Source: Sycon ciliatum
Taxonomy: Eukaryota; Porifera; Calcarea; Leucosolenida; Sycettidae
Direction: 5' to 3'
NCBI RefSeq assembly: GCF_964019385.1
Contig: NC_088643.1
Span: forward strand, 15,087,035-15,151,034
Length of the DNA: 64,000 nucleotides
Below the pieces are notes generated by a model. It was given only the letters and a program-made list of their open reading frames with translations, was not told the DNA's origin and searched no databases. Of the stretch, positions 491 to 52,277 are shown piece by piece (position 1 is the stretch's first letter; the number at the start of each line of letters is the position of its first letter). Position numbers and translations under genes: made by a program.

Positions 491-708
491 GCACTTAGTA
501 CCAAATGGGTAGGGCACTGTCCCGGAAAGACAGGGGTGCTGGGTTCGAATCCCGGTTGTGGATCCTTCTTTTGCAACAGTTTGAACAATCCTATGCTGGA
601 TCAAGGTTGTTGGTTGAACTGACAATTACCCGTCTAGACCATAGCTAGGGAATTTCCCTGAACGTGTTGGACCCTTGAGTCTCTTTTCACCTTATTCACT
701 CAAATTCC
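491..708 (+). repeat. tRNA-derived SINE, copy 1
   Basis: The head (about 491-565) has an A-box-like stretch near 499-512 and a perfect B-box core GGTTCGAATCC at about 541-551, at tRNA-like spacing. The tRNA-unrelated body follows (CAACAGTTTGAACAATCC, then CCCTTGAGTCTC) and ends near a CTTATTCACTCAAAT motif. At least ten full or partial copies occur on both strands of the window. RNA polymerase III promoters of this kind drive SINE transcription; mobilisation would need a partner LINE, which is not identified here. Confidence 0.75.
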
Positions 709-724
709 AGAAAGAAAAAGTCAG

Positions 725-1077
725 AAAGGGTTTGCTCCCCACACTGGAGCTCACGGTATTCCGCCGACTTTACTTGACACTTGACTGACTCACGACTGCC
801 ATCCAGAGCACACGAGAAGTCCATCGAACCTTCGACTCGGCAAACCTGCAAGAAAGCACCACTCCCTGCTCAATACACAGTGTTCCGGGGAATTCACCCC
901 TCATCAGTTGAGCTTGAGTAGGCTGAGGAAGATTGTGTCTGAATAGCACCACTTATATAGTGTTCTCCAGGCACACACATCACCAGGGATGCAAACTTAC
1001 AGAAACGCTCCGCTTCCAGCGCGACAAACACCTTGTGAACACCAGATAGCAGCGTGAGTCAGAGTCGCTTGTGGACG
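725..1077 (-). mobile_element. hammerhead-ribozyme element, inverted copy
   Basis: This segment is the reverse complement of the ribozyme-bearing element repeated at 1078-2090, 4262-4653, 6661-7049 and 9175-9566. It abuts the direct tandem copies head to head at about 1077. It includes the same TATA-like hairpin region (GAGCACTATATAAGTGG on its own strand) and the ribozyme at 868-913. It has no coding capacity. Confidence 0.75.
868..913 (-). ncRNA. type I hammerhead ribozyme (inverted copy)
   Basis: Read on the minus strand: stem I strand GCTCAA, core CTGATGA, stem II with GGGG paired to CCCC, core GAA, a 3-bp stem III (ACA/TGT with loop CTG), cleavage residue A, then TTGAGC closing stem I. 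All catalytic-core positions of the hammerhead family are present. A very short stem III is typical of ribozymes from Penelope-like elements and animal retrozymes, which cleave best as dimers. Confidence 0.85.
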
Positions 1078-1397
1078 GTGAGCTCCAGTGTGGGGAGCAA
1101 ACCCTTTCTTACAAATCATCGCCGAAGTCGCAACCACTACTTCGTACTGTTGTGCCCAGCGCGGGCTTGCTACTAGTTGGTTTGGAGGTGACAGCGTTGC
1201 GAATGACCGAGGGTCCTCAACGTCTGTTCTCACCGTCCAGGAGCGACACCGACTCACGCTGCTATCTGGTGTTCACGAGGTGTTTGTCGCGATGGAAACG
1301 GAGCGTCTCTGTGAGTTTGTATCTCAGGTGATGTTTGTTCTTGGAGAGCACTACATAAGTGGTGCTCTTCAGGCACAATCTTCTTCAGCCTACTCAA

Positions 1398-1443
1398 GCT
1401 CAACTGATGAGGGGTGAATTCCCCGAAACACTGTGTATTGAGC
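1398..1443 (+). ncRNA. type I hammerhead ribozyme, tandem copy 1
   Basis: Stem I GCTCAA/TTGAGC (6 bp), core CTGATGA at 1404-1410, stem II GGGG/CCCC, core GAA at 1425-1427, stem III ACA/TGT with a 3-nt loop, predicted cleavage after A1437. Every invariant core base is present. Confidence 0.88.
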
Positions 1444-1869
1444 AGGGAGTAGTGCTTTCTTGCAGGTTTGCCGAGTCGAAGGTTCGATGGGCTTCTCGTG
1501 TGCTCTGGATGGCAGTTGTGAGTCAGTCAAGTAAAGTCGGCGGAATAGCGCGAGCTCCACTGTGGGGAGCAAACCCTTTCTTACAAATCATCGCCGAAGT
1601 CGCAACCACTACTTCGTACTGTTGTGCCCAGCGCGGGCTTGCTACTAGTTGGTTTGGAGGTGACAGCGTTGCGAATGACCGAGGGTCCTCAACGTCTGTT
1701 CTCACCGTCCAGGAGCGACACTGACTCACGCTGCTATCTGGTGTTCACGAGGTGTTTGTCGCGATGGAAACGGAGCGTCTCTGTGAGTTTGTATCTCAGG
1801 TGATGTTTGTTCTTGGAGAGCACTACATAAGTGGTGCTCTTCAGGCACAATCTTCTTCAGCCTACTCAA

Positions 1870-1915
1870 GCTCAACTGATGAGGGGTGAATTCCCCGAAA
1901 CACTGTGTATTGAGC
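1870..1915 (+). ncRNA. type I hammerhead ribozyme, tandem copy 2
   Basis: Identical in sequence to the copy 472 bp upstream, with cleavage predicted after A1909. Two copies in tandem would excise a unit-length RNA. Confidence 0.88.
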
Positions 1916-3370
1916 AGGGAGTAGTGCTTTCTTGCAGGTTTGCCGAGTCGAAGGTTCGATGGGCTTCTCGTGTGCTCTGGATGGCAGTTGTGAGTCAGTC
2001 AAGTAAAGTCGGCGGAATAGCGCGAGCTCCACTGTGGGGAGCAAACCCTTTCTTACAAATCATCGCCGAAGTCGCAACCACTACTTCGTAAAGAAAAAGT
2101 CATCCACAGTAATATTACTGGCAGTAGTATGGCTAGTTATACTAAAGTCAAAAACAGTTCTCCCTGAAGATCGGCCATGCACGGAAATTTGGTGAAAATC
2201 TGTAAGTTGCATCAAAGAGACCAGTTGCAATATTTTGAGCCCGGACGAAAAGCGAGTGCCTCCATGGAAGCGAGTTCCCCAACACTGTACAAGCCTGTAT
2301 ATACATGTTTATACTGTAGTACCGCACTTGAATTGAATGAGTGCTCGAAATCAAAATGGGTACACTTTTGCAAACGGTACCTGCGATTAACACGCCACAT
2401 ACATACAAGGACCTTCCTTGATATGCCAACACTAACTGTCTTATACAGGGTCTGATCCAGAGATCTCTACAGGGGGTTGTAGTTTATCCAAAGCTGAATA
2501 GCTGATACATGTATAGTACATGCATATGAATTCCAGTAGGGGATTTGTATAATTTAGGGGTTTCCGCTTAACGCCCGGAACCCCCTAGACTCGTCCCTGT
2601 TATAGCCTTCAGCACCTTACCTGAGTGCGTTCCACCCTCGCCATTTCTCTCCACAATTCTAAATACTGCCGGGATATTTCCTTGCGACTTTGAATATCTA
2701 AATCTGATGCATTCAGTGAAACCTGCATCACGTGACCAAACAACAAGCGAGGCAGAGTACAGCAAGGGTATGACAATAATGTACAGAGTACAGAGTACAG
2801 CAAGGGTATGACAATAATGTACAGAGAGTACAGAGTTCAAGAGAGTATGGCAAGGGTACAGGCAAACCAGCATGTATCACTGTATTTGGTCCGACCTATT
2901 AAAATGTGCGTCTCATATACAAATGAGCACAAGTTCTAAAAAATACCCCAAGAGACGGTAGATAGATAACTACTGTGTCGTTTCTTCTCATCTCCTCCAA
3001 GCTATGCTGCTCTTCCTTGATTTCATCACTACATAGGCACGATTGAGATGATCGCATTGGCCTCTTCCTCGTGCTTCATGCAGTCAGACTATGAGTGCAT
3101 GCTATTCCCTGTGATACGAATCCACTGGACCGGCAGACGGGCAATCTTGTGACTGAGCTTTTAGCATAAGCAGCTTGATGTACCATTGACACCTCGCAGT
3201 TTCGGCCAAAAAGGCCTCATTAGTACAGCTACGAGCTAAATAGGCCGAGCTACCAGCCATGGTGCAAAGGAGGCACCACAGACGTTAAGATAGGTCGTCG
3301 CTCTAGCGCCAGAGTGCTCTACCCACGAAAGGTACTGGGCAATGCGTAATGCAGCAGCACTACAGCAGCC

Positions 3371-3590
3371 TGTGTGTGCGTGTGTGTGTGTATGTGTGTG
3401 TGTGTATGTGTGTGTGTGTGTATGTGTGTGTGTATGTGTGTGTGTGTGTGTATGTGTGTGTGTGTGTATGTGTGTGTGAAAATGTGTGTGTGTGAAAATG
3501 TGTGTGTGTGGAAATGTGTGTGTGTATGTGTGTGTGAAAATGTGTGTGTGTGGAAATGTGTGTGTGTGCGTGTGGAAATGTGTGTTTGTA

Positions 3591-3623
<33 letters not shown>

Positions 3624-3629
3624 GTGTTT
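3371..3629. repeat. (TG)n microsatellite, unit 1
   Basis: Long TG tract interrupted by TGTATG, TGAAAATG and TGGAAATG. On the gene strand this is a (CA)n tract starting a few bases after the exon donor. Equivalent tracts lie at 5908-6120, 8383-8643 and 10853-10963. Confidence 0.95.
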
Positions 3630-3635
3630 ACTCAC

Positions 3636-4075
3636 ACTGCTCTGATGTCCCGGCTGCTGCTGTTCTTGCGCTGGCTGCTGTTCTTGCGCCGGCTGCTGTT
3701 CTTTCGCCGGCTGCTGTTCTTGCGCCGGCTGCTGTTCTTGCGCCGGCTGCTGTTCTTGCGCCGGCTGCTGTTCTTGCGCCGGCTGCTGTTCTTGCGCCGA
3801 CTGCTGTTCTTGCGCCGACTGCTGTTCTTGCGCCGACTGCTGCTGTTCGTGCGCCGGCTGCTGCTGTTCGTGCGCCGGCGGCTGCCGTTGCGCCTGCTGC
3901 TGTCGTTGCGCCTGCTGCTGTCGTTGCGCCTGCTGCTGTCGTTGCGCCTGCTGCTGTCGTTGCGCCTGCTGCTGTCGTTCCACCTGCTGCTGTCGTTCCG
4001 CCTGCTGCTGTCGTTGCGCCTGCTGGTGTTGTTGCGCCTGCTCCTGTTGTTGCGCCTGCTGCTGTTGTTGCGCCT
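3636..4075 (-). pseudogene. polyQ/QPAQEQ exon, truncated copy (unit 1)
   Basis: On the minus strand this is the 3' part of the exon family. It contains repeated QQQAQR blocks, then QPAQEQ-type 18-bp repeats (CAG CCG GCG CAA GAA CAG and variants), ending GHQSS at a GTGAGT donor (complement of 3630-3635). The 5' part with the MAMM start is missing, because a duplication junction fuses the repeat to a SINE at 4076. Without a start or acceptor it is best called a truncated copy. Confidence 0.6.
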
Positions 4076-4255
4076 GAGTGAATAAGGTGAAAAGAGACTC
4101 AAGGGAAATTCCCTACCTATGGTCTAGACGGGTAATTGTCAGTTCAACCAACAACCTTGATCCAGCATTGGATTGTTCAAACTGTTGCAAAAGAAGGATC
4201 CACAAGCGGGATGCGAACCCAGCACCCCTGTTCTTCCGGGACAGTGGGTCTCTTT
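4076..4255 (-). repeat. tRNA-derived SINE, copy 2
   Basis: Reverse orientation copy: body motif GACTCAAGGG, then AGCATTGGATTGTTCAAACT, then the B-box region (GGATGCGAACCCAGC on the plus strand). It joins a ribozyme element directly at about 4262. The B-box carries a T-to-C change relative to copy 1. Confidence 0.7.
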
Positions 4256-4261
4256 TTGACC

Positions 4262-4653
4262 GTCCAGGAGCGACACTGACTCTCGCTGCTATCTGGTGTT
4301 CACAAGGTGTTTGTCGCGCTGGAAACGGAGTGTCTCTGTAAGTTTGTATCCCTTGGTGATATTTGTGCCTGGAGAGCACTATATAAGTGGTGCTCTTCAG
4401 GCACAATCTTCCTCAGCCTACTCAAGCTCAACTGATGAGGGGTAAATATCCCGAAACACTGTGTATTGAGCAGGGAGTGGTGCTTTCTTGCAGGTTTGCC
4501 GAGTCGAAGGTTCAATGGACTTCTCGTGTGCTCTGGATGGCAGTCGTGAGTCAGTCAAGTGTCAAGTAAAGTCGGCGGACCAGCGCGTGCTCCAGTGTGG
4601 GGAGCAAACCCTTTCTTACAAATCATCGCCGAAGTCGCAACCACTACTTCGTA
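4262..4653 (+). mobile_element. hammerhead-ribozyme element, single copy (unit 1)
   Basis: Runs from GTCCAGGAGCGACACTGAC to CCACTACTTCGTA, about 390 bp, lacking the ~80-bp segment that links monomers in the 1.1-2.1 kb array. It includes a hairpin with a TATATAAG core (near 4378-4386) and the ribozyme at 4426-4471. The same arrangement is repeated in units 2 and 3. Confidence 0.75.
4426..4471 (+). ncRNA. type I hammerhead ribozyme (unit 1)
   Basis: Stem I GCTCAA/TTGAGC, core CTGATGA, stem II GGGG paired with TCCC (one G-U pair replaces G-C), core GAA, 3-bp stem III, cleavage after A. The stem II and loop changes relative to the 1.4-kb copies preserve the fold. Confidence 0.85.
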
Positions 4654-5907
4654 AAGAAAAAGTCATCCACAGTAATATTACTGGCAGTAGTATGGCTAGT
4701 TATACTAAAGTCAAAAACAGTTCTCCCTGAAGATCGGCCATGCACGGAAATTTGGTGAAAATCTGTAAGTTGCATCAAAGAGACCAGTTGCAATATTTTG
4801 AGCCCGGACAAAAACCGAGTGCCTCCATGGAAGCGAGTTCCCCAACACTATACAAGCCTGTATATACATGTTTATACTGTAGTACCGCACTTGAATTGAA
4901 TGAGTGCTCGAAATCAAAATGGGTACACTTTTGCAAACGGTACCTGCGATTAACACGCCACATACAAGGACCTTCCTTGATATTCCAACACTAACTGTCT
5001 TATACAGGGTCTGATCCAGAGATCTCTACAGGTGGTTGTAGTTTATCCAAAGCTGAATAGCTGATACATGTACAGTACATGCATATGAATTCCAGTAGAA
5101 GATTTGTAAAATTTAGGGGGGTCCGCTTAACCCCCGGAACCCCCTAGACTCGTCCCTGTTATAGCCTTCAGCACCTTACCTGAGTGCGTTCCACCCTCGC
5201 CATTTCTCTCCACAATTCTAAATACTGCCGGGATATTTCCTTGCGACTTTGAATATCTAAATCTGATGCAATCAGTGAAACCTGCATCACGTGACCAAAC
5301 AACAAACGAGGCAGAGTACAGCAAGGGTATGACAATAAAGTACAGAGTACAGAGTACAAGAGAGTATGACAAGGGTACAGGCAAACCAGCGTGTATCACT
5401 GTACTTGATCCGACTTATTAAAATGTGCGTCTCATATAAAATCTCAAGCCTTCGTACAAATGAGCACAAGTTCTAAAAAATACCCCAAGAGACGGTAGAT
5501 AGATAACTACTGTGTCGTTTCTTCTCATCTCCTCCAAGCCATGCTGCTCTTCCTTGATTTCATCACTCCATAGGCACGATTGACATGATCGCATTGGCCT
5601 CTTCCTCGTGCTTCATGCAGTCAGTCTATGAGTGCATGCTATTCCCTGTGATACGAATACACTGGACCGGCAGACGGGCAATCTTGTGACTGAGCTTTTA
5701 GCATAAGCAGCTTGATGTAGCAGTGACACCTCGCGGTTTCGGCCAAAAAGGCCTCATTAGTGCAGCTACGAGCTAAAAAGGCCGAGCTACCAGCCATGGT
5801 GCAAAGGAGGCACCACAGACGTTAAGATAGCTCGTCGCTCTAGCACCAGAGTGCTCTACCCACGAAAGGTACCGGGCAATGCGTAATGCAGCAGCACTAC
5901 AGCAGCC

Positions 5908-5941
<34 letters not shown>

Positions 5942-6126
5942 TGTGTGTATGTGTGTGTGTATGTGTGTGTGTATGTGTGTGTGTGTATGTGTGTGTGTGT
6001 ATGTGTGTGTGTGTATGTGTGTGTGAAAATGTGTGTGTGTGGAAATGTGTGTGTGTGTGAGAATGTGTGTTTGTAAATGTGTGTGTGTGTGTGTGTAAAT
6101 GTGTGTGTGTAAATGTGTTTACTCAC

Positions 6127-6458
6127 ACTGCTCTGATGTCCCGGCTGCTGCTGTTCTTGCGCCGGCTGCTGTTCTTGCGCCGGCTGCTGTTCTTGCGCCG
6201 GCTGCTGTTCTTGCGCCGACTGCTGTTCTTGCGCCGACTGCTGTTCTTGCGCCGGCTGCTGTTCTTGCGCCGGCTGTTGCTGTTCGTGCGCCGGCTGCTG
6301 CTGTTCGTGCGCCGGCGGCTGCCGTTGCGCCTGCGGCTGCCGTTGCGCCTGCTGCTGTCGTTGCGCCTGCTGCTGTCGTTGCGCCTGCTGCTGTCGTTCC
6401 GCCTGCTGCTGTCGTTCCGCCTGCTGCTGTTGTTGCGCCTGCTGCTGTTGTTGCGCCT
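6127..6458 (-). pseudogene. polyQ/QPAQEQ exon, truncated copy (unit 2)
   Basis: Same structure as the unit 1 copy: 18-bp Gln/Pro/Ala/Glu repeats ending in GHQSS at a GTGAGT donor (complement of 6121-6126), with a 5' end lost at the SINE junction (6459). It has fewer repeats than unit 1, showing repeat-number change since duplication. Confidence 0.6.
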
Positions 6459-6658
6459 GAGTGAATAAGGTGAAAAGATACTCAAGGGTCCAACACGTTC
6501 AGGGAAATTCCCTAGCTATGGTCTAGGCGGGTAATTGTCAGTTCAACCAACAACCTTGATCCAGCATTGGATTGTTCAAACTGTTGCAAAAGAAGGATCC
6601 ACAAGCGGGATGCGAACCCAGCACCCCTGTCCTTCCGGGACAGTGGGTCTCTTTTTAA
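6459..6658 (-). repeat. tRNA-derived SINE, copy 3
   Basis: Reverse-orientation SINE with the body motif CAACACGTTCAGGGAAATTCC (slightly more complete than in unit 1), and the B-box region at about 6600-6620. It is joined to the ribozyme element at 6661. Confidence 0.7.
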
Positions 6659-6660
6659 CC

Positions 6661-7049
6661 GTCCAGGAGCGACACTGACTCACGCTGCTATCTGGTGTTC
6701 ACAAGGTGTTTGTCGCGCTGGAAACGGAGTGTCTCTGTAAGTTTGTATCCCTTGGTGATGTTTGTGCCTGGAGAGCACTATATAAGTGGTGCTCTTCAGG
6801 CACAATCTTCCTCAGTCTACTCAAGCTCAACTGATGAGGGGTGAATATCCCGAAACACTGTGTATTGAGCAGGGAGTGGTGCTTTCTTGCAGGTTTGCCG
6901 AGTCGAAGGTTCAATGGACTTCTCGTGTGCTCTGGATGGCAGTCGTGAGTCAGTCAAGTGTCAAGTTAAGTCGGCGGAATAGCGCGAGCTCCAGTGTGGG
7001 GAGCAAACCCTTTCTTACAAATCGCCGAAGTCGCAACCACTACTTCGTA
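6661..7049 (+). mobile_element. hammerhead-ribozyme element, single copy (unit 2)
   Basis: Same limits and order as the unit 1 copy, with a 3-bp deletion near 7020. The TATATAAG-core hairpin is near 6773-6795. Confidence 0.75.
6825..6870 (+). ncRNA. type I hammerhead ribozyme (unit 2)
   Basis: All core bases are present; stem I GCTCAA/TTGAGC; stem II closes with one G-U pair; stem III ACA/TGT; cleavage predicted after A6864. Confidence 0.85.
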
Positions 7050-8380
7050 AAAAAAAGTCATCCACAGTAATATCACTGGCAGTAGTATGGCTAGTTATAC
7101 TAAAGTCAAAAACAGTTTTCTCCCTGAAGATCGGCCATGCACGGAAATTTGGTGAAAATCAGTAAGTTGCATCAAAGAGACCAGTTGCAATATATTGAGC
7201 CCGGACAAAAACCGAGTGCCTCCATGGAAGCGAGTTCCCCAACACTGTACAAGCCTGTATATACATGTTTATACTGTAGTACCGCACTTGAATTGAATGA
7301 GTGCTCGAAATCAAAATGGGTACACTTTTGCAAACGGTACCTGCGATTAACACCCCACATACATACAAGGACCTTCCTTGATATGCCAACACTAACTGTC
7401 TTATACAGGGTCTGATCCAGAGATCTCTACAGGGGGTTGCAGTTTATCCAAAGCTGAATAGCTGATACATGTATAGTACTTGCATATGAATTCCAGTAGA
7501 AGATTTGTAAAATTTAGGGGGTTTCGCTTAACGCCCGGAACCCCCTACACTCGTCCCTGTTATAGCCTTCAGCACCTTACCTGAGTGCGTTCCACCCTCG
7601 CCATTTCTTTCCACAATTCTAAATACTGCCGGGATATTTCCTTGCGACTTTGAATATCTAAATCTGATGCATTCAGTGAAACCTGCATCACGTGACCAAA
7701 CAACAAACGAGGCAGAGTACAGCAAGGGTATGACAATAATGTACAGAGTACAGAGTACAGAGCACAGCAAGGGTATGACAATCATGTACAGAGTACTGGG
7801 TACAGCAAGGGTATGACAATAAGGTACAGAGAGTACAGAGTTCAAGAGAGTATGGCAAGGGTACAGGCAAACCAGCATGTATCACTGTACTTGGTCCGAA
7901 TTATTAAAATGTGCGTCTCATATAAAATCTCAAGCCTTCGTACAAATGAGCACAAGTTCTAAAAAATACCCCAAGAGATGGTAGATAGATAACTACTGTA
8001 TCGTTTCTTCTCATCTCCTCCAAGCTATGCTGCTCTTCCTTGATTTCATCACTCCATAGGCACGATTGAGATGATCGCATTGGCCTCTTCCTTGTGCTTC
8101 ATGCAGTCAGACTATGAGTGCATGCTATTCCCTGTGATACGAATCCACTGGACCGGCAGACGGGCAATCTTGTGACTGAGCTTTTAGCATAAGCAGCTTG
8201 ATGTAGCAGTGACACCTCGCGGTTTCGGCCAAAAAGGCCTCATTAGTACAGCTACGAGCTAAATAGGCCGAGCTACCAGCCATGGTGCAAAGGAGGCACC
8301 ACAGACGTTAAGATAGCTCGTCGCTCTAGCGCCAGAGTGCTCTCCCCACGAAAGGTACCGGGCAATGCGTAATGCAGCAG

Positions 8381-8420
<40 letters not shown>

Positions 8421-8649
8421 TGTGTGTAAATGTGTGTGTGTAAATGTGTGTGTGTAAACGTATGTGTGTGAAAATGTGTGTGTGTAAATGTGTGTGTGTG
8501 CGTGTGTAAATGTGTGTTTGTAAATGTGTGTGTGTGTAAATGTGTGTGTGTAAATGTGTGTGTGTGAAAATGTGTGTGTGTAAATGTGTGTGTGTGCGTG
8601 TGTAAATGTGTGTTTGTAAATGTGTGTGTGTGTAAATGTGTTTACTCAC

Positions 8650-8972
8650 ACTGCTCTGATGTCCCGGCTGCTGCTGTTCTTGCGCCGGCTGCTGCTGTTC
8701 TTGTGCCGGCTGCTGCTGTTCTTGCGCCGGCTGCTGCTGTCGTTGCGCCGGCTGCTGCTGTCGTTGCGCCGGCTGCTGCTGTCGTTGCGCATGCTGCTGT
8801 CGTTGCGCCTGCTGCTGTCGTTCCGCCTGCTGCTGTCGTTGCGCCTGCTGCTGTCGTTGCGCCTGCTGCTGTCGTTCCGCCTGCTGCTGTCGTTCCGCCT
8901 GCTGCTGTTGTTGCGCCTGCTGCTGTTGTTGCGCCTGCTGCTGTTGTTGCGCCTGCTGCTGTTGTTGCGCCT
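8650..8972 (-). pseudogene. polyQ/QPAQEQ exon, truncated copy (unit 3)
   Basis: The donor GTGAGT is the complement of 8644-8649. The repeat section is dominated by QQQAQR- and QQPAQR-like blocks, with a different mix from units 1 and 2. It is fused to the SINE edge at 8973, so the 5' exon end is absent. Confidence 0.6.
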
Positions 8973-9172
8973 GAGTGAATAAGGTGAAAAGAGACTCAAG
9001 GGTCCAACAAGTTCAGGGAAATTCCCTAGCTATGGTCTAGACGGGTAATTGTCAGTTCAACCAACAACCTTGATCCAGCATTGGATTTTTCAAACTGTTG
9101 CAAAAGAAGGATCCACAAGCGGGATGCGAACCCAGCACCCCTGTCCTTCCGGGACAGTGGGTCTCTTTTTGA
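8973..9172 (-). repeat. tRNA-derived SINE, copy 4
   Basis: Reverse-orientation SINE followed directly by the ribozyme element at 9175, as in units 1 and 2. Confidence 0.7.
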
Positions 9173-9174
9173 CT

Positions 9175-9566
9175 GTCCAGGAGCGACACTGACTCACGCT
9201 GCTATCTGGTGTTCACAAGGTGTTTGTCGCGCTGGAAACGGAGTGTCTCTGTAAGTTTGTATCCCTTGGTGATGTTTGTGCCTGGAGAGCACTATATAAG
9301 TGGTGCTCTTCAGGCACAATCTTCCTCAGCCTACTTAAGCTCAACTGATGAGGGGTGAATATCCCGAAACACTGTGTATTGAGCAGGGAGTGGTGCTTTC
9401 TTGCAGGTTTGCCGAGTCGAAGGTTCGATGGACTTCTCGTGTGCTCTGGATGGCAGTCGTGAGTCAGTCAAGTGTCAAGTAAAGTCGGCGGAATAGCGCG
9501 AGCTCCAGTGTGGGGAGCAAACCCTTTCTTACAAATCATCGCCGAAGTCGCAACCACTACTTCGTA
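9175..9566 (+). mobile_element. hammerhead-ribozyme element, single copy (unit 3)
   Basis: Same limits as the unit 1 and 2 copies. The TATATAAG-core hairpin lies near 9288-9310, with the ribozyme at 9339-9384. Confidence 0.75.
9339..9384 (+). ncRNA. type I hammerhead ribozyme (unit 3)
   Basis: GCTCAA, CTGATGA, stem II with one G-U pair, GAA, a 3-bp stem III, cleavage A, TTGAGC. A C-to-T change just outside stem I (CTACTTAAGC) does not touch the core. Confidence 0.85.
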
Positions 9567-10850
9567 AAGAAAAAGTCATCCACAGTAATATCACTGGCAG
9601 TAGTATGGCTAGTTATACTAAAGTCAAAAACAGTTCTCCCTGAAGATCGGCCATGCACGGAAATTTGGTGAAAATCTGTAAGTTGCATCAAAGAGACCAG
9701 TTGCAATATTTTGAGCCCGGACAAAAACCGAGTGCCTCCATGGAAGCGAGTTCCCCAACACTATACAAGCCTGTATATACATGTTTATACTGTAGTACCG
9801 CACTTGAATTGAATGAGTGCTCGAAATCAAAATGGGTACACTTTTGCAAACGGTACCTGCGATTAACACACCATATACATACAAGGAACTTCCTTGATAT
9901 TCCAACACTAACTGTGTTATACAGGAGCTGATCCAGAGATCTCTACAGGTGGTTGTAGTTTATCCAAAGCTGAATAACTGATACATGTACAGTACATGCA
10001 TATGGATTCGAGTAGAAGATTTGTAAAATTTAGGGGGTTCCGCTTAACCCCCGGAACCCCCTAGACTCGTCCCTGTTATAGCCTTCAGCACCTTACCTGA
10101 GTGCGTTCCACCCTCGCCATTTCTTTCCACAATTCTAAATACTGCCGGGATATTTCCTTGCGACTTTGAATATCTAAATCTGATGCAATCAGTGAAACCT
10201 GCATCACGTGACCAAACAACAAACGAGGCAGAGTACAGCAAGGGTATGACAATAATGTACAGAGTACAGAGTACAGAGTACAGCAAGGGTATGACAATAA
10301 GGTACAGAGAGTACAGAGTTCAAGAGAGTATGGCAAGGGTACAGGCAAACCAGCATGTATCACTGTATTTGGTCCGAATTATTAAAATGTGCGTCTCATT
10401 TCAAAACTCAAACATTCGTACAAATGAGCACAAGTTCTAAAAAATACCCCAAGAGACGGTAGATAGATAACTACTGTATCGTTTCTTCTCATCTCCTCCA
10501 GGCTATGATGCTCTTCCTTGATTTCATCACTTTTCATTAAGATGATCGCATTGGCCTCTTCCTCGTGCTTCATGCAGTCAGACTATGAGTGCATGCTATT
10601 CCCGTGATACGAATTCACTGGACCGACTGACGGGCAATCTTGTGACGGAGCTTTTAGCATAAGCAGCTTGATGTAGCAGTGACACCTCGCGGTTTCGGCC
10701 AAAAAGGCTACGAGCTAAATAGGCCGAGCTACCAGCCATGGTGCAAAGGAGGCGGCACCACAGACATTAAGATAGCTCGTCGCTCTAGCGCCAGAGTGCT
10801 CTACCCACGAAAGGTACCGGGCAATGCGTAATGCAGCAGCACTACAGCAG

Positions 10851-10890
<40 letters not shown>

Positions 10891-10969
10891 TGTGTGTGTA
10901 TTTGTATGTGTGTGTGTGTGTGTGTGTGTATGTGTGTGTGTGTAAATGTGTGTGTGTGTGTTTACTCAC

Positions 10970-11353
10970 ACTGCTCTGATGTCCCGGCTGCTGCTGTGGT
11001 TGCGCCGGCTGCTGTGGTTGCGCCGGCTGCTGTGGTTGCGCCGGCTGCTGTGGTCGCGCCGGCTGCTGTGGTCGCGCCGGCTGCTGTGGTCGCGCCGGCT
11101 GCTGTGGTCGCGCCGGCTGCTGTGGTCGCGCCGGCTGCTGTGGTCGCGCCGGCTGCTGTGGTTGCGCCGGCTGCTGTTCTTGCGCCGGCTGCTGTTCTTG
11201 CGCCGGCTGCTGTTCTTGCGCCGGCTGCTGTTCTTGCGCCGGCTGCTGTTCTTGCGCCGGCTGTTGCGCCTGCTGCTGTAGTTGCGCCGGCTGCTGTTGT
11301 TGCGCCTGCTGCTGTTGTTGCGCCTTCTGCAGCTGCTGCTGCATCATTGCCAT
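10970..11353 (-). CDS. polyQ/QPAQEQ first exon, most complete copy of the array (unit 4)
   Basis: Starts at ATG (complement of 11351-11353; MAMMQQQ), runs through Gln/Ala-rich sequence, then about five PAQEQ-type, six PARPQ-type and several PAQPQ-type five- to six-residue repeats, and ends GHQSS at a GTGAGT donor (complement of 10964-10969). It is about 128 codons without a stop. The NLYQSQ...AVYAD module seen in copies 0 and A-C is absent; the 18-bp repeat appears to have expanded in its place. An in-frame stop lies upstream of the ATG, supporting that ATG as the start. The product is not recognised. Downstream exons were not identified. Confidence 0.55.
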
Positions 11354-11669
11354 CGAGAATGCAGTGGATCCATGTGTTTGTTTCGAGGAGAGCACATCAT
11401 CAGGAACATCACGAAGAAATTACAGAATACATTGCCAGCCCTCGTCACTGACATGGCAAAAGAGCACAGTGATTAAGAAACCCCGAAAAGGGAAATGATT
11501 TCCACTTGCACAAGTGTGCTGCTTCTGTAGCCCAGTATTCCAAACACGCAAACATGCCTAGCCAAAGTCACCATTGGCAAACATTTACGGATTCTGCTCA
11601 ATCCATCCAGCACATTCATCCAAGTTCTTTAACGCTAACTGAGACGGAATCAATGCAAGATCTGTTCAT

Positions 11670-11895
11670 ATGCACATGGCACCTAATGGGTAAGGCACTG
11701 TCCTCTCAAAACAGGGATGCTGGGTTCGAATCCCGTTTGTGGATCCTTCTTTTGGAACAGTTTGAACAATCCAATGCTGGATCAAAGTTGTTTGGCCAAC
11801 TGACAAGGACTTAACTAGACTGTAGCTTAGGGATTTTCCCTGAACGTGTAAGACCCTGTGTGTGTTTTTTTTTTACCTTATTCACTCAAATTCCA
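11670..11895 (+). repeat. tRNA-derived SINE, copy 5 (best tRNA-like head)
   Basis: The head has an A-box-like TGGCACCTAATGGG near 11678 and the B-box GGTTCGAATCCC near 11722-11733, at tRNA-like spacing, then the shared body to ACCTTATTCACTCAAAT. It lies upstream of the polyQ exon in the same position as copy 1 relative to copy 0, which shows the two regions are paralogous. Confidence 0.75.
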
Positions 11896-12094
11896 GCAAT
11901 AAAAAGTCATCCACAGTAATATTACTGGTAGTAGCATGGCTAGTTATACTGAAGTCAAAACTGGTTTCACCCTGATGATCCGCCATACCTGAAATTTTTT
12001 TGAATAATTGTTATATTCGTATGCACCAAAGAGACCGTATTTAAAATGTTTGAGTTCAGGTAAACTAAGGTTTGAGTAGAGGTATCCAAAGGTC

Positions 12095-12285
12095 AAAAAG
12101 AGACTCAAGGGTCATACACGTTCAGGGAAAATCGCCACGCTACAGCCTAGACGGGTAATTGTCAGTTCAACAAACAACCTTACTCCAGCATTGGACTGTG
12201 CAAACTGCTGCAAAAGAAGGATCCACGAGCGGGATTGAAACCAGCGCCCCTACCGTTTCTGGGACAGTGCCTTATCGATTCGGGT
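12095..12285 (-). repeat. tRNA-derived SINE, copy 6
   Basis: Reverse orientation, with body motif AGAGACTCAAGGGTCATAC and a head with a degenerate B-box (GGTTTCAATCCC on its own strand). The flank continues into TTCTTGCTACAAAACTCACTGGTG, which recurs at about 53,887-53,910. Confidence 0.65.
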
Positions 12286-12289
12286 ACCG

Positions 12290-14180: not shown

Positions 14181-14383
14181 GAAACGCTCTCTCTAGGCTG
14201 CAAAGTAAGTAACCGGTAGTTCTGGCACAGAGCTCTCCTTCTCACCACCACCACCATCAGTTCGCGCCTGGCGCCTGGTCGATGCATGGTTGGCGGTATC
14301 CGGCATAGCAGGCTGGTACATCAAGTAGCGCATGGCACATACCATGCATACCGGTAGATGATGACACAGCAAGGACATATCTC

Positions 14384-14427
14384 GATTGCGACGTACGTTT
14401 CGTCCCCGCTGGACTCATCAGGCAATC
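14384..14427 (-). ncRNA. type I hammerhead ribozyme, left arm of palindrome
   Basis: Mirror copy of the right-arm ribozyme. On the minus strand: GATTGC, CTGATGA, stem II GTCC/GGAC around AGCGG, GAA, stem III ACG/CGT with loop TA, C, GCAATC. Confidence 0.85.
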
Positions 14428-14487
14428 TTCTTCTTGGATGTCTTCATATGGAGCTTGACTCGGGAGAATGAAGACATCCAAGAAGAA

Positions 14488-14531
14488 GATTGCCTGATGA
14501 GTCCAGCGGGGACGAAACGTACGTCGCAATC
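14488..14531 (+). ncRNA. type I hammerhead ribozyme, right arm of palindrome
   Basis: Stem I GATTGC/GCAATC is fully paired. Core CTGATGA is at 14494-14500, stem II GTCC/GGAC has a 5-nt loop, core GAA is at 14514-14516, stem III is ACG/CGT with a 2-nt TA loop, and cleavage is predicted after C14525. The sequence is unrelated to the 1.4-kb family, so this is a second ribozyme family. Confidence 0.87.
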
Positions 14532-14799
14532 AAGCTATGTCGTTGCTGTGTCATGCGCTACTTGATGTAACAGCCTGCTATGCCGGATACCGCCAGCCAT
14601 GCATCGACCAGGCGCCAGGCGCGAACTGATGGTGGTGGTGGTGAGAAGGAAAGCTCTGTGCCAGAACTTTGCAGCCTAGAGAGCGTTTGTGGGCAGGCGT
14701 GTGTTTACCGCCATATTGCCAGGTGTGTCTTTACCACCATATTTATCAACCAGAAGAGCGCTAGCGCGTGATTTATTCAAAGATGTTTCTTATCTCGGC

Positions 14800-17588: not shown

Positions 17589-17696
17589 TCTTCCCTGGCT
17601 AGAACACTGTAAGTGGACTGTAGTCATTATATTATTACTGTAGTCATTATACTATTACTGTAGTCATTATATTATTACTGTAGTAATTATATTGCA

Positions 17697-18090
17697 TTAT
17701 GAATACAAGTACAATCTTACGCAAGAGGTACACAAAAGGAAGTGAATAGGGCTGTTGTTTTGTTGTAACTCAGAGTTTCATGGCAAAACAACAATCATCA
17801 GACAACATAAGGAGATTAGAAAAAACGCAGGTACATGTATATGGAGGCAAGTAGAGGAGATAGAATAATTCAGTGAAGACAATAATGATAATCAACACCT
17901 CCCAGAGGCAGTACGCTCTGACGTGCAAGAATCAACATCTCAAGCAGTCAAGGTGTTGGGTGCCTATGCCATGGTGAAACATGAACACACACACTCATCC
18001 ACACACACACACCGTCTCACACTAGTCCACACACACAGCCTCTCGTTCTCACACACTCCACACTCCCGCATTATCGCACCTAAACACACG

Positions 18091-18125
<35 letters not shown>

Positions 18126-18610
18126 CACACACACATACGCGTACACACACACACACACACGCCAAACCCATAGCACGCCATACACGTTATGTCACTTCAT
18201 AACCCAGCAAAAACTTGCGCTGGTGTCGGCACTATGATACAAACTCGCTCCTTTTATTAAGTACAATCTTAAAAACAATCTTACAACTAACCTGACTTCC
18301 TGTCTACTGCACAAATTACAAACTAACTGTCTCAGGTAACAAAAAAGCGGGACAAAAACGTTTGTTTTGCAAGTCGAACATGATGTGTTTTCATTTTGTG
18401 AGCTCCAGCATCAGCAACGTCCTGTCCCGTGCTCCTTTTCTTGCTGATTCCAACGAACTTTAATCGCCCAAAGAGTCGAGGGTCAAACCTGTCGCCTCAG
18501 AATAGCCAACCTTTATGGCCAAGTATCGCCATAGTTTTCAGCCACACAGATGACGGTGAGGACACTCCAGGCGAAAGGGAGTAGACAGGCAGTGGAGAGG
18601 AGCAATCAGA
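17697..18610. repeat. left ~0.9-kb direct repeat flanking a LINE (giant TSD candidate)
   Basis: Matches 22296-23193 with about five substitutions plus a shorter (CA)n tract in the right copy. It starts at TTATGAATACAAG and stops exactly at the 3' tail of the minus-strand LINE. It includes a (CA)n microsatellite (about 17980-18165) and part of the MASQAS gene-like fragment. Confidence 0.85.
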
Positions 18611-18823
18611 TGTATTATTATTATTATTTTATTATTTCACAATCACGATGACATAGTGCCAATAAGCATGTGATGCGGGCGATTTTAACCAGCCATGGTG
18701 GGGACAACTGAGAAAAAGAAGGAGAAGAAAAAGAGAAAAGAAAACAAAACAAAAGGAGTACTATAGGAACCTGGAGAGAGCAGTATGAAGATTAGGCTAG
18801 CAATGGAAAACAACGAATTCAAT

Positions 18824-21800
18824 TCAATTCGACTTAGGCGCGGGCAGAATGTAACAAAATGCAGCGAAGGTGTCATGAGACTTTACCTCCTGCGGAAGCC
18901 GAGACCAATGAGAATAGGACTTGAACAGAGGGGATTTTAAAAGGATCGATGACCTGGCAAGTGGGAAATGGAGAGAACATCTAGTACGCGAGCTATTATT
19001 GAACCAGCTTAAATGCGCAAGTGCATGAGGAGGAGCAAGTTGAAGCTTAATGCGGTGAATGAATTTGCATGCCGAGTGGAGAAAGCGTTCTGAGAGAGGG
19101 GAAGAGGAAGCCAAAATGTATAGCGTCTGAGAGGAGGTCAGAGGGGGCATGCGAAATATTAATCGAAGTAATTTACGGTGGGTGACTTCTAACCGATGCA
19201 TAAGAGCGGAGGATAGACCGGAGGACCAAACGAGAGAGCAGTAATCAAACAAAGGAAGAACATAAGAGTGATAAATTTGTATTCGACAACCATGGTGTAG
19301 ATGGAAGATGTGAGGAGAAATGCAGCCTATCGCGGAGCAAACTCGCTTTTCAATATAGGTTACGTGCGAATCCCAGGACAAGTGTTCATCAAGAAATATA
19401 CCAAGGTGTTTGTGATTTTTAACAATATTGATAGCAATGGGATCATCAGGGAAAGTAAAAAGCCGAGTCGTAAAGAGGGTGAGGTCACTGGAGGGTCGTG
19501 GGGGGATACAAAGGATTGCCGTTTTCGACACATTGGGGCGGAGTTTCCACTTCGACATCCAGCGCACAACTTGATTAATGTGATACTGTAGCGAGTCGCA
19601 GGCTTGCAATAAGCCTGGCTCGGTTATATGGAGCGCTGTATCGTCCGCGTAGAGTGAGGTATGATCCAAACCTGCCAAATCATTAACGTATACGATGAAC
19701 AATAGAGGCCCCAAGATAGAGCCCTGGGGCACTCCAGAGTGGACTGTTAGAGGGGCGGATAGGGCATGTCCAATTCGGACACTCTGTCGACGTTCAGTGA
19801 GATAGCTGGTGAGCCACTGCAGACACGTCCCGGCTACGCCAAACGCTGCTAACTTATGGAGGAGACCCCTTGTCCAGACAGTGTCAAATGCTTTGCTAAG
19901 GTCGAAAAAACATAGGAGGCTAAATTGCTTCTGATCCTTGCATTCATATTATAGCTTCTGCACAAGCCTCAGCAACTGCCAGGCGGTTGAATCGCCTCGC
20001 CGAAATCCAGACTGTGACGGGTCAAGGACCGGGTTCACATGTTGGTATAAGTGGCCAAATGCCACACGTTCACAGAGCTTTGAAATGGTGGAAAGGAGTG
20101 AAATCGGCCGGTAATTGGATGCAGACAGTTTACTGCCTTTATTCTTGTAAATAGGCACAACCACAGCTGCCTTCCAGACATCAGGGAAGATTCCGGTGGC
20201 GAAGGACTGGTTGAAAACTAGGCTGAGAGGGATAGCTATACTAGGAGACAGGGCTTTTAGGAGTTCATGGGATATGCCATCTGCACCTGCCGCCTTCTTG
20301 GGCTTTAGGCGACGGATGTGTTGGGCAATGGCGGTGGGAGTAGTGCTAAAAGAGGGTAGTGCTGGGAGCCCGTGGTGTGGAATACCAGGGAGAGACCATG
20401 CAGGATCATCCGGCGTTCCACAAAGCTGATGAATTGGCGATTCAGAGCATTGGCAATCTGGGTAGGGTCGTTGTGTACTGTGTTATTTTCATGGAGTTCA
20501 GTGATGATAGGGTTTCCAACAGGGGTCGGCGAACGGAGCTGCTTAACAAACTTGAACAAACTAGGGGTGGATGCAATAATGGATGAGGGGTTAGTGCTAA
20601 TGGAGGACACATACTGGCGGTGAGCCTCTCTAGATAGGATTCGTGCTCTGTTACGTTCGCACTTGTAATGCTTGTGATTGCTAGGGGTAGGATACTTGCG
20701 ATACAAGCTGTACGAGTCTCGCTTCCTCTTCAGCTGAGCTTTAACAGCACGTGTCAGCCACGGGGGACTTGGCGTACGTCGTCTAGGGGCTGAAGAGCGC
20801 GACCGGGTAGGTAGGAAAGCGGAGCATAGACCATGAAGGATGTCATAAAATGCTGGAGCAGTACGGTTTGGATCTCCAAGCTTCAACTGGAGAGCAGCAT
20901 GCCAGTTCAAATTAGCAATGGATTCATTTAGAGCAACTAGGTGAGTGGGAAGAATGGAGGAGATGTCAAACTGACTGAAGTCAGGTATCTGGAAGGAATG
21001 GGAGGGCAGTGTAGTGTTGGGTGCAGGTGGTGATGCGGTACATGTCGGGATGCACAAACGGCCGAGAACAATTGAGTGGTCCGACTGACCGAGAGGGGCT
21101 GGGGGGCGCGGATCGCAGATGCTGGCTGCAGTGTCAGTGATCATCAAATCCAGAGCAGCCTCATTGCCTTTGTGGGAGCGGTGGGTCGAGAATGTGACGT
21201 GTTGCTGCAAGGCAAACATGTCAAGAAGACATGAAAGGTGGTGGCCCGCAGTGTCTGTTGTTGTTCCATACCAGGTGGAACATTCAGCATTGAAATCTCC
21301 CATGATGAGGACTGGCGAGCCAGGGGTCCGTATTTTAGTCAAGCAGCTTTGAAATGAGGCGTAAAAGTTATCTATCACCGACGGGTCGGTGGACGGTGGG
21401 CGGTAGACAGCCGCAATTTGGATGGGCTGCTGGCGCGTGGGGCAAGCAGAGGTTCCAGTGGATGGCGATATCTCTACCCAGGTAGCTTCCAATTGCGGAA
21501 GATGTAGGTCTGTACGGTGGGTAATAGGACCAAATGCACTTGATTTTACTAAGATAGCAACACCGCCATAGGCCAGGAAGTCGTTGGTGTTAATTTTATT
21601 CTCGGAGGTGGGTCGATCCCTTCGAAAACATTCATAGCCTGGGAAGGAGAGGGAAATGTGTGGACACAACCAGGTTTCAGTTATGCAAACAACAAGGGGA
21701 CAGCTGGTCGTGAGAAAGTCAGATAGCTCAGAAGATTTGTTTCTAAGGGAACGTGCATTGATGCAGGCTACGGAAAAGGCGGCTAGGGGCGTTGAAGGAT

Positions 21801-21846
21801 AGAAGGGTGTTGCGTTAGGGTCAAGTTGAGGTGTTGGTTTACTCAT
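18824..21846 (-). pseudogene. LINE ORF2: endonuclease-reverse transcriptase (one frameshift, one stop)
   Basis: The N-terminal endonuclease shows INARSLRNK, ITETW, VYRPP, GDFNAE, LDLMITD and GQSDHS in order, the full apurinic/apyrimidinic endonuclease signature. The RT follows with NYRPISLLSTISK, QSGFRRGDST, FFDLSKAFD, GVPQGSILGPLLF and SLYADDTALH, then a C-terminal domain ending SHWSRLPQEVK. About 1,000 codons. A frameshift lies between about 20,165 and 20,340, and an in-frame TAA at about 19,949 interrupts the RT, so this copy cannot make an active enzyme. The start ATG overlaps the ORF1 stop as ATGA. Confidence 0.85.
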
Positions 21847-22295
21847 TGTTCAGATTCAGCCTGGTCAGTGTGGAACCTCCATTTCCGGATACTAATTTTG
21901 TCAGGCCAGAAACCAGGCCCTTGGATCTTGTCTACACAGTTCTCTCCCACAACCAGGTGGGCATAAGCTGTACCAAAGTACCGTGATTCTGAGATTGAGC
22001 AGTGAAAAACTTCGACATCTTTCTTTTTACACCACAGTTCAATTGAGGCAGCATCGCATCCAAAGTCTACATTGCCAAGGTAGAAAGCCGTGCGCTTCAC
22101 CCGCTCCACGCCCTGAAGGTCAGTGCGTTTGGTACGGGCTGGCTCTTTTGTGAACTGGCTTGTGATAGTGCGTTTCAGTGGATTACTGCTAGTGTTGGTG
22201 TCGGCTTGTGCAGGGCGGCGGCGGCGGTGTGGGTTTTGCCACCCATTGTCGCTTGTGCTTGTATCTTGCGTTTGAGGTTTGGCGGGCAGGTCAGG
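21843..22295 (-). pseudogene. LINE ORF1, C-terminal part (5'-truncated)
   Basis: The frame is open from the 5' edge of the element to a TGA at 21843-21845. The C-terminal ~75 residues (AFYLGNVDFG, SRYFGTAYAHLVV, GFWPDKISIRKW) resemble the RRM-like domain found in ORF1 proteins of many animal LINEs, which bind the element RNA. Upstream is basic and low complexity. No start codon remains, so the element is truncated within ORF1. Confidence 0.65.
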
Positions 22296-23193
22296 TTATG
22301 AATACAAGTACAATCTTACGCAAGAGGTACACAAAAGGAAGTGAATAGGGCTGTTGTTTTGTTGTAACTCAGAGTTTCATGGCAAAACAACAATCATCAG
22401 ACAACATAAGGAGATTAGAAAAAACGCAGGTACATGTATATGGAGGCAAGCAGAGGAGATAGAATAATTCAGTGAAGACAATAATGATAATCAACACCTC
22501 CCAGAGGCAGTACACTCTGACGTGCAAGAATCAACATCTCAAGCAGTCAAGGTGTTGGGTGCCTATGCCATGGTGAAACATGAACACACACACTCATCCA
22601 CACACACACACCGTCTCACACTAGTCCACACACACAGCCTCTCGTTCTCACACACTCCACACTCCCGCATTATCGCACCTAAACACACGCGCACACACAC
22701 ACACACACACACACCACACACACATACGCGTACACACACACACGCCAAACCCAAAGCACGCCATACACGTTATGTCACTTCATAACCCAGCAAAAACTTG
22801 CGCTGGTGTCGGCACTATGATACAAACTCGCTCCTTTTATTAAGTACAATCTTAAAAACAATCTTACAACTAACCTGACTTCCTGTCTACTGCACAAATT
22901 ACAAACTAACTGTCTCAGGTAACAAAAAAGCGGGACAAAGACGTTTGTTTTGCAAGTCGAACATGATGTGTTTTCATTTTGTGAGCTCCAGCATCAGCAA
23001 CGTCCTGTCCCGTGCTCCTTTTCTTGCTGATTCCAACGAACTTTGATCGCCCAAAGAGTCGAGGGTCAAACCTGTCGCCTCAGAATAGCCAACCTTTATG
23101 GCCAAGTATCGCCATAGTTTTCAGCCACACAGATGACGGTGAGGACACTCCAGGCGAAAGGGAGTAGACAGGCAGTGGAGAGGAGCAATCAGA
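22296..23193. repeat. right ~0.9-kb direct repeat flanking the LINE
   Basis: Begins at TTATGAATACAAG directly after the LINE 5' end and continues past AGCAATCAGA into unique sequence, as expected for the second copy of a duplicated target. Confidence 0.85.
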
Positions 23194-23238
23194 GGTAGCT
23201 GAAGATGCTGATGTCGCCGAAGACGCCTGCGAAGCCAT
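23080..23238 (-). pseudogene. gene-like fragment MASQAS..., copy 2
   Basis: The minus-strand ATG (complement of 23236-23238) opens a 52-codon Ser/Ala/Pro-rich reading (MASQASSATSASS, PVYSLSPGVSS, SSVWLK, then TMAILGHKGWLF). It is the inverted paralogue of the copy at 14.8 kb. It could be a first exon or a spurious frame; no family is recognised. The LINE insertion lies just beside it. Confidence 0.3.
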
Positions 23239-33877: not shown

Positions 33878-33915
33878 GCTTCCTGAGGAGTGTTGTGCGA
33901 AAACTAGTTCGAAGT
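33878..33915 (+). ncRNA. hammerhead ribozyme in the Penelope-like 3' region
   Basis: Stem I GCTTC/GAAGT (with a terminal G-U), core CTGAGGA (position 7 is variable in hammerheads), a weak 3-bp stem II (G-C plus two G-U), core GAA, stem III AAC/GTT with a TA loop, cleavage predicted after C33910. Its place about 235 bp after the stop codon fits known Penelope-like elements. The weak stem II lowers confidence. Confidence 0.65.
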
Positions 33916-38415: not shown

Positions 38416-40640
38416 TCAGCCATTACACACAGCACACATTAGATCCTTCCACTTTCGACGATCCTGGGCGAGCTGCCTCAGTGCAACTAGATCCTCGTGT
38501 GATGTGAGGGAGTTTGTGGATCTGGAATTTTTCAGGTCGTTGTTGATGGATCGCGGGAGTGTTGTTCTCGGGCGGCCTCGGAACCCTGAGCTTCCTGGCT
38601 GAAAGTATGCCGACATAGCCTGCTGGACCGGGGATGAGGTGTCTAGTCGAAGCATGTGGCCAAACATTCTCCACCTAGCAGACTGGATGATTCTGCTGAG
38701 TGGCTTGGAGCCAGTGCGCTTGTACAGTGCTTCATTGCGTATTATACGGGGATATTTGACCCCTATGACTGCTCGTAACTGCTGGCGGTGGAACGAGTCA
38801 AGTTTCTTTTCTTGAGTCTCTGTCAGGCTCCATGTGCCGCAGTTATAAAGAAGTATTGGGAGAATAAAGCTGCCGTATAACCTAATCCGAAGGGGTTCAC
38901 GGGCATGGTTACCTCTTAGCCATATCACCCACAGCTGATGTAAGGCGCATGTTGCTAGACGTTTTCTCCGACTGATATCTTCCTCCACTCCAAGCATCGA
39001 TCCTAGTTTGACCGTGTTCCGCCATCGCTCGTCTACTCTGTCCTTTTCTCTTTTAATTGTAGTATATTCGGTTTTGGCTTCATTCATTTTTAGATTGTAT
39101 TCCGCTAACGAGGATGATAGTATGGGTTGATTGTCATGCAAATATTGTAGGCTGGTGCTGATGAAGTCTACGTCATCCGCATACGCTGTTTCATTGGGCA
39201 ATTGAAGCTGAATATCCAATGCTGGTCGCGGTGAGAGTCGCTCTCGAATCAACCTCAATGCAGCCTCGAGGTAGACAGTAAACAGGACTGGCGATAGAGA
39301 ATCACCTTGTGGGGTTCCATTGTGTGTGACTAATGGTTGGCTGAGAATGTTATTCAGCTTTACTTTTATTGTGGTGTCTGTCAGAAGGCACTGGATGATG
39401 TGCAGCTCATCATGATCAATGACTGTTGACAGTATATCGATCAGCCTGACCCTTGATATAGTGTCAAATGCCTTTGACATATCAATGCCTAAGATTGAGA
39501 TCTCCGACGCAACACGCTGGCATCTTGCTGATAACCACCGATAGCTATATACCACGTCTCCAGTACTTCTCCCTGACCGGAACCCGCTCTGGTTCAGTGA
39601 CAAGTACCCGTTGATAGCTGGCTTGATCCGCGTCAGGATGACCAATGAAAGAAGTTTACGTAGGGTGTTCAACAGGGTAACTGGCCTTACATTTCCAGGA
39701 GGACCTCTTTTCTTTCCCGGCTTTGGTATCGGGATCAGTAGCCCATCGCCTAGCTTGAGTGATTTGTCTTTGGCATAATTGTTGAATGTAGTGGCAATGT
39801 TCGAGAACAGTGCTGGTGTTCCATATTTGATAAGTTCAGCAGGTATCCCATCTGGTCCCGAAGCTCGGCCATTATTCAAGCGCTTAGCTGCGGCATGTAC
39901 CTCTGGCTGCTTTATAGGGTTTTTAAGGTCTTCCTCTGTCCGTAAGAGCCTAGATGACTCCAGAGCAGGATCACAGAATATAGCACGGAAGTGTTGCCTT
40001 AATGCTTCGACTGATTCACTAGGTTGTGCAATGAGTTTGCCATCAGAGTCTTCAACCACAACTGGTGACTGCTGCTGTCGGCGCAGTAGTCGTGTTGCTT
40101 TGAACATTTTCGCGTCGTCTTTCATTTGGTCTATTTCAGCTACACGTTCGTCCAGTCGAGTCGATGCTAACTTGAGGCATTCCCGGCGAATTTGGTGTGC
40201 CAGCCTGTTGCGTCGCGTCTTCATTTCTTTTACCTTCGTTCCATCTCTGCACACCGTAATGTCGAGACGCAGTTTGCGTTTCTCTGCTGCTAGCTTTTCA
40301 ATTTCCCCGCTGAAGCCATTTCTATGCGTCTTGTTTGTTTTAGGGACGCGGCCCACCGATGTGTTTGCTGCCTCACTCATAGCGTTCACAATATACTGCA
40401 GATGTTGCTCCGCATTGACACCTTCCTGCTCTCTGCCGAGGTCCTGTAGATGTTCGTTGATAGCCTCTCTGTACTTTGCTTTCTTGGTCGGGTCACTAAA
40501 TTCGGATATATTGAATTTTGCGTTGCTGGATATGGCTACTGGCGGCCTCTTGAGCTTCTTGTACAACTTAGTCAGGTTGAGGTTTGCCAGCACAAGACGG
40601 TGATCGCTTTCTAAGCTTGTCCCTATATTAAGTACAGAAT
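38416..40640 (-). CDS. RTE-like LINE ORF, reverse transcriptase intact, 5'-truncated
   Basis: One uninterrupted minus-strand frame of about 740 codons. It begins in the last endonuclease motif (SLESDHRLV), continues with a basic linker, then the RT: NGRASGPDGIPAELIKYG, RPVTLLNTLRKLLS, QSGFRSGRSTGDVV, ILGIDMSKAFDTI, NGTPQGDSLSPVLF and TAYADDVDFIS. The C-terminal domain has FILPILLYNCGTW, SARWRMFGHMLRLD and a Trp-containing end at the stop. The frame is unbroken over the whole RT, unlike the other LINEs here, so the insertion is fairly young. It lacks most of the endonuclease (5' truncation near 40,640). RTE-superfamily assignment is by the C-terminal pattern and the 3' repeats. Confidence 0.8.
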
Positions 40641-52250: not shown

Positions 52251-52277
52251 ACATTGATGGGGGTCTCCACAGAATGT

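Follow-up and report, generated by a model that had tools for sequence, protein, structure and literature searches.

The block at positions 724–2089 of the window (the whole 64,000-nucleotide stretch of Sycon ciliatum contig NC_088643.1 analysed here) is most probably a retrotransposed copy of a non-autonomous element, non-coding and of the same type as the animal non-LTR retrozymes, a reading to which we assign a probability of roughly 0.8 from its sequence. The locus carries tandem units, a putative ribozyme motif in each full unit, a target-site duplication with a corresponding empty site, and no coding signal. It is laid out as follows:

711–723, no strand: left target-site duplication, 13 bp, identical to 2090–2102
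724–1082, minus strand: inverted incomplete unit, head to head with the tandem units (BLAST, repeat search)
1080–1551, plus strand: full 472-bp unit 1 (Tandem Repeats Finder, repeat search)
1552–2023, plus strand: full 472-bp unit 2, 99.6% identical to unit 1
2024–2090, plus strand: partial third unit, positions 1–67, whose last base may belong to the duplication
2090–2102, no strand: right target-site duplication, 13 bp, identical to 711–723
11740–12040, no strand: paralogous empty site, target at 11897–11909, with one target copy in the alignment

Tandem Repeats Finder reports a period of 472 at 1080–2090, with 2.1 copies (2.14 units) and 99% matches; the identity between the two full units holds across all 472 bp, and the third unit breaks off at unit position 67. 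The units are contiguous, forming a dimer or more with no separate centre and no LTR arrangement, and their GC content is 52.3% against 47.6% for the window. Within the inverted copy, 304 bp at 779–1082 are 92% identical to the forward units in BLAST and repeat searches, and an extra 33-bp piece lies at 720–752. This copy has unit positions ~150–472 and 1–33 and lacks ~34–149. The inverted and forward halves join at GAG (1080–1082), which is common to both. An open frame of 121 codons that crosses the unit junction, the longest round the circle, was considered as a coding unit and rejected: frames at least as long occur in 18% of 500 shuffles, and Pfam yielded no match for either of the two frames scanned for this insertion; between the duplications, no frame from a start codon exceeds 121 amino acids. 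The earlier note had described a non-coding 472-bp unit present about 2.1 times, with a third copy head to head on the other strand, and the analysis agrees on each of these points, the inverted copy being incomplete.

The strongest evidence lies at the edges. A perfect 13-bp duplication, AAAGAAAAAGTCA, flanks 724–2089 on both sides, and the joined flanks align straight through 11740–12040, at the right end of a 2.5-kb array, without the insert. There the target is present once, as CAATAAAAAGTCA, matching at 11 of 13 positions. Because the duplication is paired with an empty paralogue, 724–2089 can be taken to have arrived as an insertion and is, as read from these junctions, not plain satellite DNA. 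The target site is A-rich, and a 13-bp duplication is of LINE-like size. Among the outcomes that would overturn it, the earlier note had named a repeat occurring only here as ordinary satellite DNA, a satellite character that this insertion signature contradicts; the note had overlooked both the duplication with its empty site, the best evidence at the locus, and three further copies of the unit:

4259–4653, plus strand: single-unit copy, positions 153–472 and 1–67, with the hammerhead at 4426–4471 intact (descriptor, covariance model R1)
6658–7049, plus strand: single-unit array copy with the hammerhead at 6825–6870 intact (descriptor, R1)
9172–9566, plus strand: single-unit array copy with the hammerhead at 9339–9384 intact (descriptor, R1)

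Each of these three copies has one unit that lacks positions 68–152 and shares the right junction of the dimer, and two of them retain the 13-bp motif intact. They have spread as part of the 2.5-kb tandem repeat, and all copies of the 472-bp unit in the window sit in that one array. The array itself runs from ~500 to 11900 and includes TG microsatellites and an 18-bp CTG-rich repeat; blocks related to it recur at ~36–37, 42 and 46–47 kb. It also carries a third, decayed hammerhead-like motif on the minus strand at 3182–3229, 5717–5766 and 8200–8252 (20–24 bits), with G5 changed to A in all three copies and a fourth counterpart near 10650–10720 that lacks the 5′ half. A further repeat occurs in both orientations at 498–702, 4075–4246, 6458–6645, 8972–9159, 11696–11888 and 12089–12287. 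Its best copies contain the letters GGTTCGAATCC, which we take to be a tRNA-like B-box, and the repeat is perhaps a tRNA-derived SINE; ARAGORN found no tRNA.

Each full unit of the dimer contains one predicted type I hammerhead, and the inverted copy a damaged one:

1398–1443, plus strand: hammerhead 1, complete type I, predicted cut after 1437 (descriptor, R1, folding)
1870–1915, plus strand: hammerhead 2, complete type I, predicted cut after 1909 (descriptor, R1)
868–913, minus strand: hammerhead of the inverted copy, core broken by a change of A13 to G (R1, 32.5 bits)

The two dimer hammerheads are identical in sequence, with stems I, II and III of 6, 4 and 3 bp, the last closed by a 3-nt loop. 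A type I descriptor script run over the window matches them and the hammerheads of the three array copies on the plus strand, and the core (C3 U4 G5 A6 N7 G8 A9, G12 A13 A14, A15.1, U16.1 and H17) is complete in all five forward copies. In the inverted copy, the core reads GGA where GAA is needed, and the strict form of the descriptor, with stem I of at least 6 bp and stem II of at least 4 bp, does not detect it; the acceptance rules for the hammerhead core given in a passage of PMC3088659 exclude this change. Thus, the complete hammerheads with 6-bp stem I and 3-bp stem III that the earlier note had proposed are present in both units, and its cuts after 1437 and 1909 stand as predicted positions. 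Its further claim, that read-through RNA from either strand could be cleaved, does not hold up: cleavage on both strands is not expected because the core of the inverted copy is broken. RNA of the inverted copy would also be complementary to the forward copies.

The strict descriptor finds seven motifs in the window (six on one strand and one on the other), five of them belonging to the retrozyme-like element, compared with a total of one in 300 dinucleotide-shuffled windows. One lax descriptor match was seen at 33878–33915. The covariance-model check suggested earlier came out divided. Rfam models report no hammerhead of the element at the gathering threshold, nor at E ≤ 10 over 64 kb, 1381 bases or 71 bases, and report instead a different hammerhead pair at 14.4 kb with 35.4 bits. 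The independent model R1 contains no window sequence and was built from 48 type I hammerheads taken from viral contigs; a broader descriptor had given 117 hits in 120 loci, and the 48 are all the distinct sequences among them that passed a narrow filter, the remainder being duplicates or having stems and loops of other lengths. R1 gives both dimer hammerheads 39.6 bits (E ~1.5e-11, a rough value from a short calibration) and the three array copies 36.5–37.2 bits, and its best score over 24000–64000 is 12.4 bits. The hammerhead motif is real by these sequence measures, and Rfam misses it because its profile is too narrow. Four of the viral contigs (L072, L013, L030 and L116) have 8, 4, 5 and 5 type I descriptor hits, respectively, on one strand, at spacings of some hundred to two thousand bases.

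The 14.4-kb pair belongs to another family. It lies in a ~500-bp palindrome at 14184–14688, with two perfect hammerheads head to head on opposite strands, at 14384–14427 (minus) and 14488–14531 (plus), which R1 scores at 44.3 bits. Their stem III, ACGUACGU, is self-complementary, and no convincing target-site duplication was visible by eye around the palindrome.

Folding places the element's hammerhead with the extended forms. When the ribozyme fold is forced, it adds an outer helix I, 1387–1395 with 1447–1456, beyond an AA/AGG internal loop. All nine outer pairs are standard in all six copies; three of them vary, and every change is between A–U or G–C and G–U. In the folding model, this continuation of helix I corresponds to the extended layout of retrozyme hammerheads, unlike the minimal Penelope-type ribozymes; the contrast between the two layouts is drawn in passages of PMC7229834 and PMC7761336. 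The ribozyme fold is close to, yet not itself, the predicted minimum-energy fold: in 76-nt pieces (four of four forward copies tested) it is 0.5 kcal/mol less stable than the local minimum, at −23.9 kcal/mol with the fold forced and the rest free versus −24.4 kcal/mol, and in all three cuts of the 472-nt circle it exceeds the minimum of the circle by 2.3 kcal/mol. With only part of the outer helix, the energy is −16.1 versus −24.4 kcal/mol. The local folding energy of the hammerhead is not unusual (z of −0.18 to −0.51 in three copies, with the Rfam-called 14.4-kb pair also examined as a control). Between two copies, stem III, ACACUGUGU, can form 8 base pairs with one U–U mismatch, a type of pairing proposed in a passage of PMC3088659 for repeat hammerheads that act as dimers.

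The predicted folding energy of the 472-nt circle is −179.7 kcal/mol, compared with −156.8 ± 6.0 for 100 shuffles (z ~ −3.8); 67% of its bases are paired, just below the ‘above 70%’ stated in part of PMC4918200. As the antisense circle departs from its shuffles to a similar degree (−151.0 versus −127.6 ± 6.8, 60 shuffles), circle stability does not single out the ribozyme strand. Substitutions between the dimer and the other copies do not significantly avoid the predicted circle pairs (P of 0.14–0.21 for the three array copies and 0.32 for the inverted copy). A conserved fold of the whole circle was considered, and is not claimed on account of these two results.

Other origins for the element would be a hammerhead-bearing satellite of the ordinary sort, spread solely by unequal crossing over, or a piece of a Penelope-like element (PLE), whether a fragment or a solo pseudo-LTR (pLTR) block, moved by that element's own enzyme. 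The satellite origin is suggested by the tandem layout and by the spread of the 4.3-, 6.7- and 9.2-kb copies within the 2.5-kb repeat, but it is very hard to square with the perfect duplication and the paralogous empty site. Moreover, 85 bp of the unit (positions 68–152) occur in the window only in the two tandem units, so the dimer is not a product of unequal crossing over among the shorter array copies alone, and the dimer differs from those copies at 18–24 of ~386 sites against 15–24 of ~700 in the flanks; we consider this origin highly improbable. A PLE origin is unlikely, if less so. According to passages of PMC11167929 and PMC7761336, PLEs carry type I hammerheads and tandem pLTRs and prefer AT-rich targets, and the A-rich target of 724–2089 would suit such a preference. 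However, PLE hammerheads are described in part of PMC7761336 as minimal, without helix III or loop–loop contacts, whereas here helix I extends past an internal loop and helix III has 3 bp. PLEs and Terminons share with this element the type I fold in tandem repeats, but combine a minimal ribozyme with coding capacity. The complete insertion has no reverse transcriptase frame and, as set out above, neither a long frame nor a Pfam match in the two frames scanned, and no GIY-YIG match was found among 19 ORF queries from the window.

A further question is how the inverted piece came to lie beside the dimer. It differs from the dimer at 26–27 of 350 sites, and a single-template insertion therefore fails to account for it; twin priming on one template was rejected for this reason and kept only in a form with two templates. 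The dimer and the inverted piece may derive from two somewhat different RNAs of one family. Alternatively, the dimer may have replaced an older forward unit, or the units of copy 1 may have changed faster than their flanks. It is possible, though we would put it well short of even odds, that there were two events: an old head-to-head insertion of the inverted piece and a single unit like those of the array, and a later conversion or nested insertion that put a dimer of a diverged subfamily in place of the forward unit of copy 1. The array copies share the right junction of the dimer, as such a history would have it, and 13 of 350 ungapped sites and one 7-bp stretch set both dimer units apart from the inverted copy and all three array copies. 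That pattern is unrooted, however: the inverted copy has 13 private sites of its own and the array copies have 3, and with these counts (13, 13 and 3) the inverted copy shows no greater affinity to the array copies than expected of three separate lineages. As the sites private to the dimer equal in number those private to the inverted copy, the case for two events is lowered, and an insertion from two templates could look similar. A two-event origin alters the history of the element and not its nature, and its odds overlap with those of the retrozyme reading.

Among known systems, the closest likeness is to the animal non-LTR retrozymes (Cervera and de la Peña 2020, PMC7229834), described in passages of that paper as tandem units with canonical type I hammerheads and target-site duplications of more than 4 bp. 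Common to both are non-coding tandem units from dimers upwards, a single hammerhead in each unit, of type I and laid out in the canonical way, the lack of LTRs, and a duplication longer than 4 bp; the predicted circle may also correspond in its stability and in the low cost of the ribozyme fold. The match to animal retrozymes made by the earlier note thus stands for the tandem non-coding unit, for the canonical-looking type I hammerheads and, in addition, for the 13-bp duplication; the two-strand cleavage that went with it does not. Unlike the published elements, this one has a unit of 472 nt versus 170–400 nt (150–450 bp) and a GC content of 52% versus below 50%, the published values, from the same passages, being a range and not an exclusion rule. 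It also has the head-to-head extra piece. It would be best filed as a putative new animal non-LTR retrozyme family, longer and GC-richer than the published range. The type I hammerhead repeats of Nematostella, to which it is likened by description, have 15-bp duplications, read as LINE-like in a passage of PMC4918200, against 13 bp here. Plant LTR retrozymes, as parts of PMC4918200 and PMC7761336 describe them, similarly have dimeric hammerheads and a proposed circular-RNA life cycle, but with type III hammerheads, an LTR–centre–LTR layout and 4-bp duplications, as opposed to type I, contiguous units and 13 bp. The whole 472-bp unit has no match in phage records, and the ribozyme pattern, searched as one pattern each, none in viral contigs or prokaryote genome contigs, where an animal element is not expected. 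Among the titles listed in literature searches with sponge terms (four, and 15 of 93), none was on retrozymes in sponges.

For the retrozyme reading, we infer a life cycle of self-cleavage, circularisation, a circular template and a LINE-like enzyme. The type I hammerhead would cut multimeric transcripts once per unit, releasing 472-nt RNAs with 5′-OH and cyclic-phosphate ends, which a host RNA ligase would close into circles. A borrowed reverse transcriptase would then copy a circle more than once round, and the cDNA would enter an A-rich site by target-primed reverse transcription, leaving the 13-bp duplication. The inverted piece on the left may reflect a second priming, or a switch to a second template ~8% different, during insertion, or else a later exchange.

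A LINE-type element lies at 17617–23197 on the minus strand, with endonuclease and reverse transcriptase matches in several frames. It is flanked by ~900-bp direct repeats (97.6%), each with a weak hammerhead-like motif (17761–17807 and 22360–22406, 19.4 bits) in which the core letters appear intact by eye and a U–U mismatch sits at the base of stem II. Reverse transcriptase frames mark further retroelements at 38416–40593 (minus), 51278–52558 (minus) and 58210–63213 (plus), including a Gypsy-like set with weak aspartyl protease, RNase H and integrase matches. A broader and rather doubtful proposal is a genome-wide economy of hammerhead-tagged elements, in which the retrozyme would insert composites from two circular templates and the 17.6–23.2 kb LINE would be a possible autonomous partner, its own RNA possibly cut by ribozymes. 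Head-to-head composites would then arise by a template switch between two circular RNAs during LINE-type target-primed insertion, and the hammerhead-like motif of the LINE repeats would have a comparable stem III, short and nearly self-complementary.

The locus bears on two wider matters. A motif whose core is complete can escape the Rfam hammerhead models, so that copy counts based on these may be underestimates. The return of animal retrozymes to DNA is still inferred, with LINEs and Penelope-like elements given as candidates in a passage of PMC7229834. Here, both ends of a complete insertion can be read, together with its 13-bp duplication, its empty paralogue and the extra piece lying head to head, and at such a defined locus the question of the mobilising enzyme and of the circular template can be asked.
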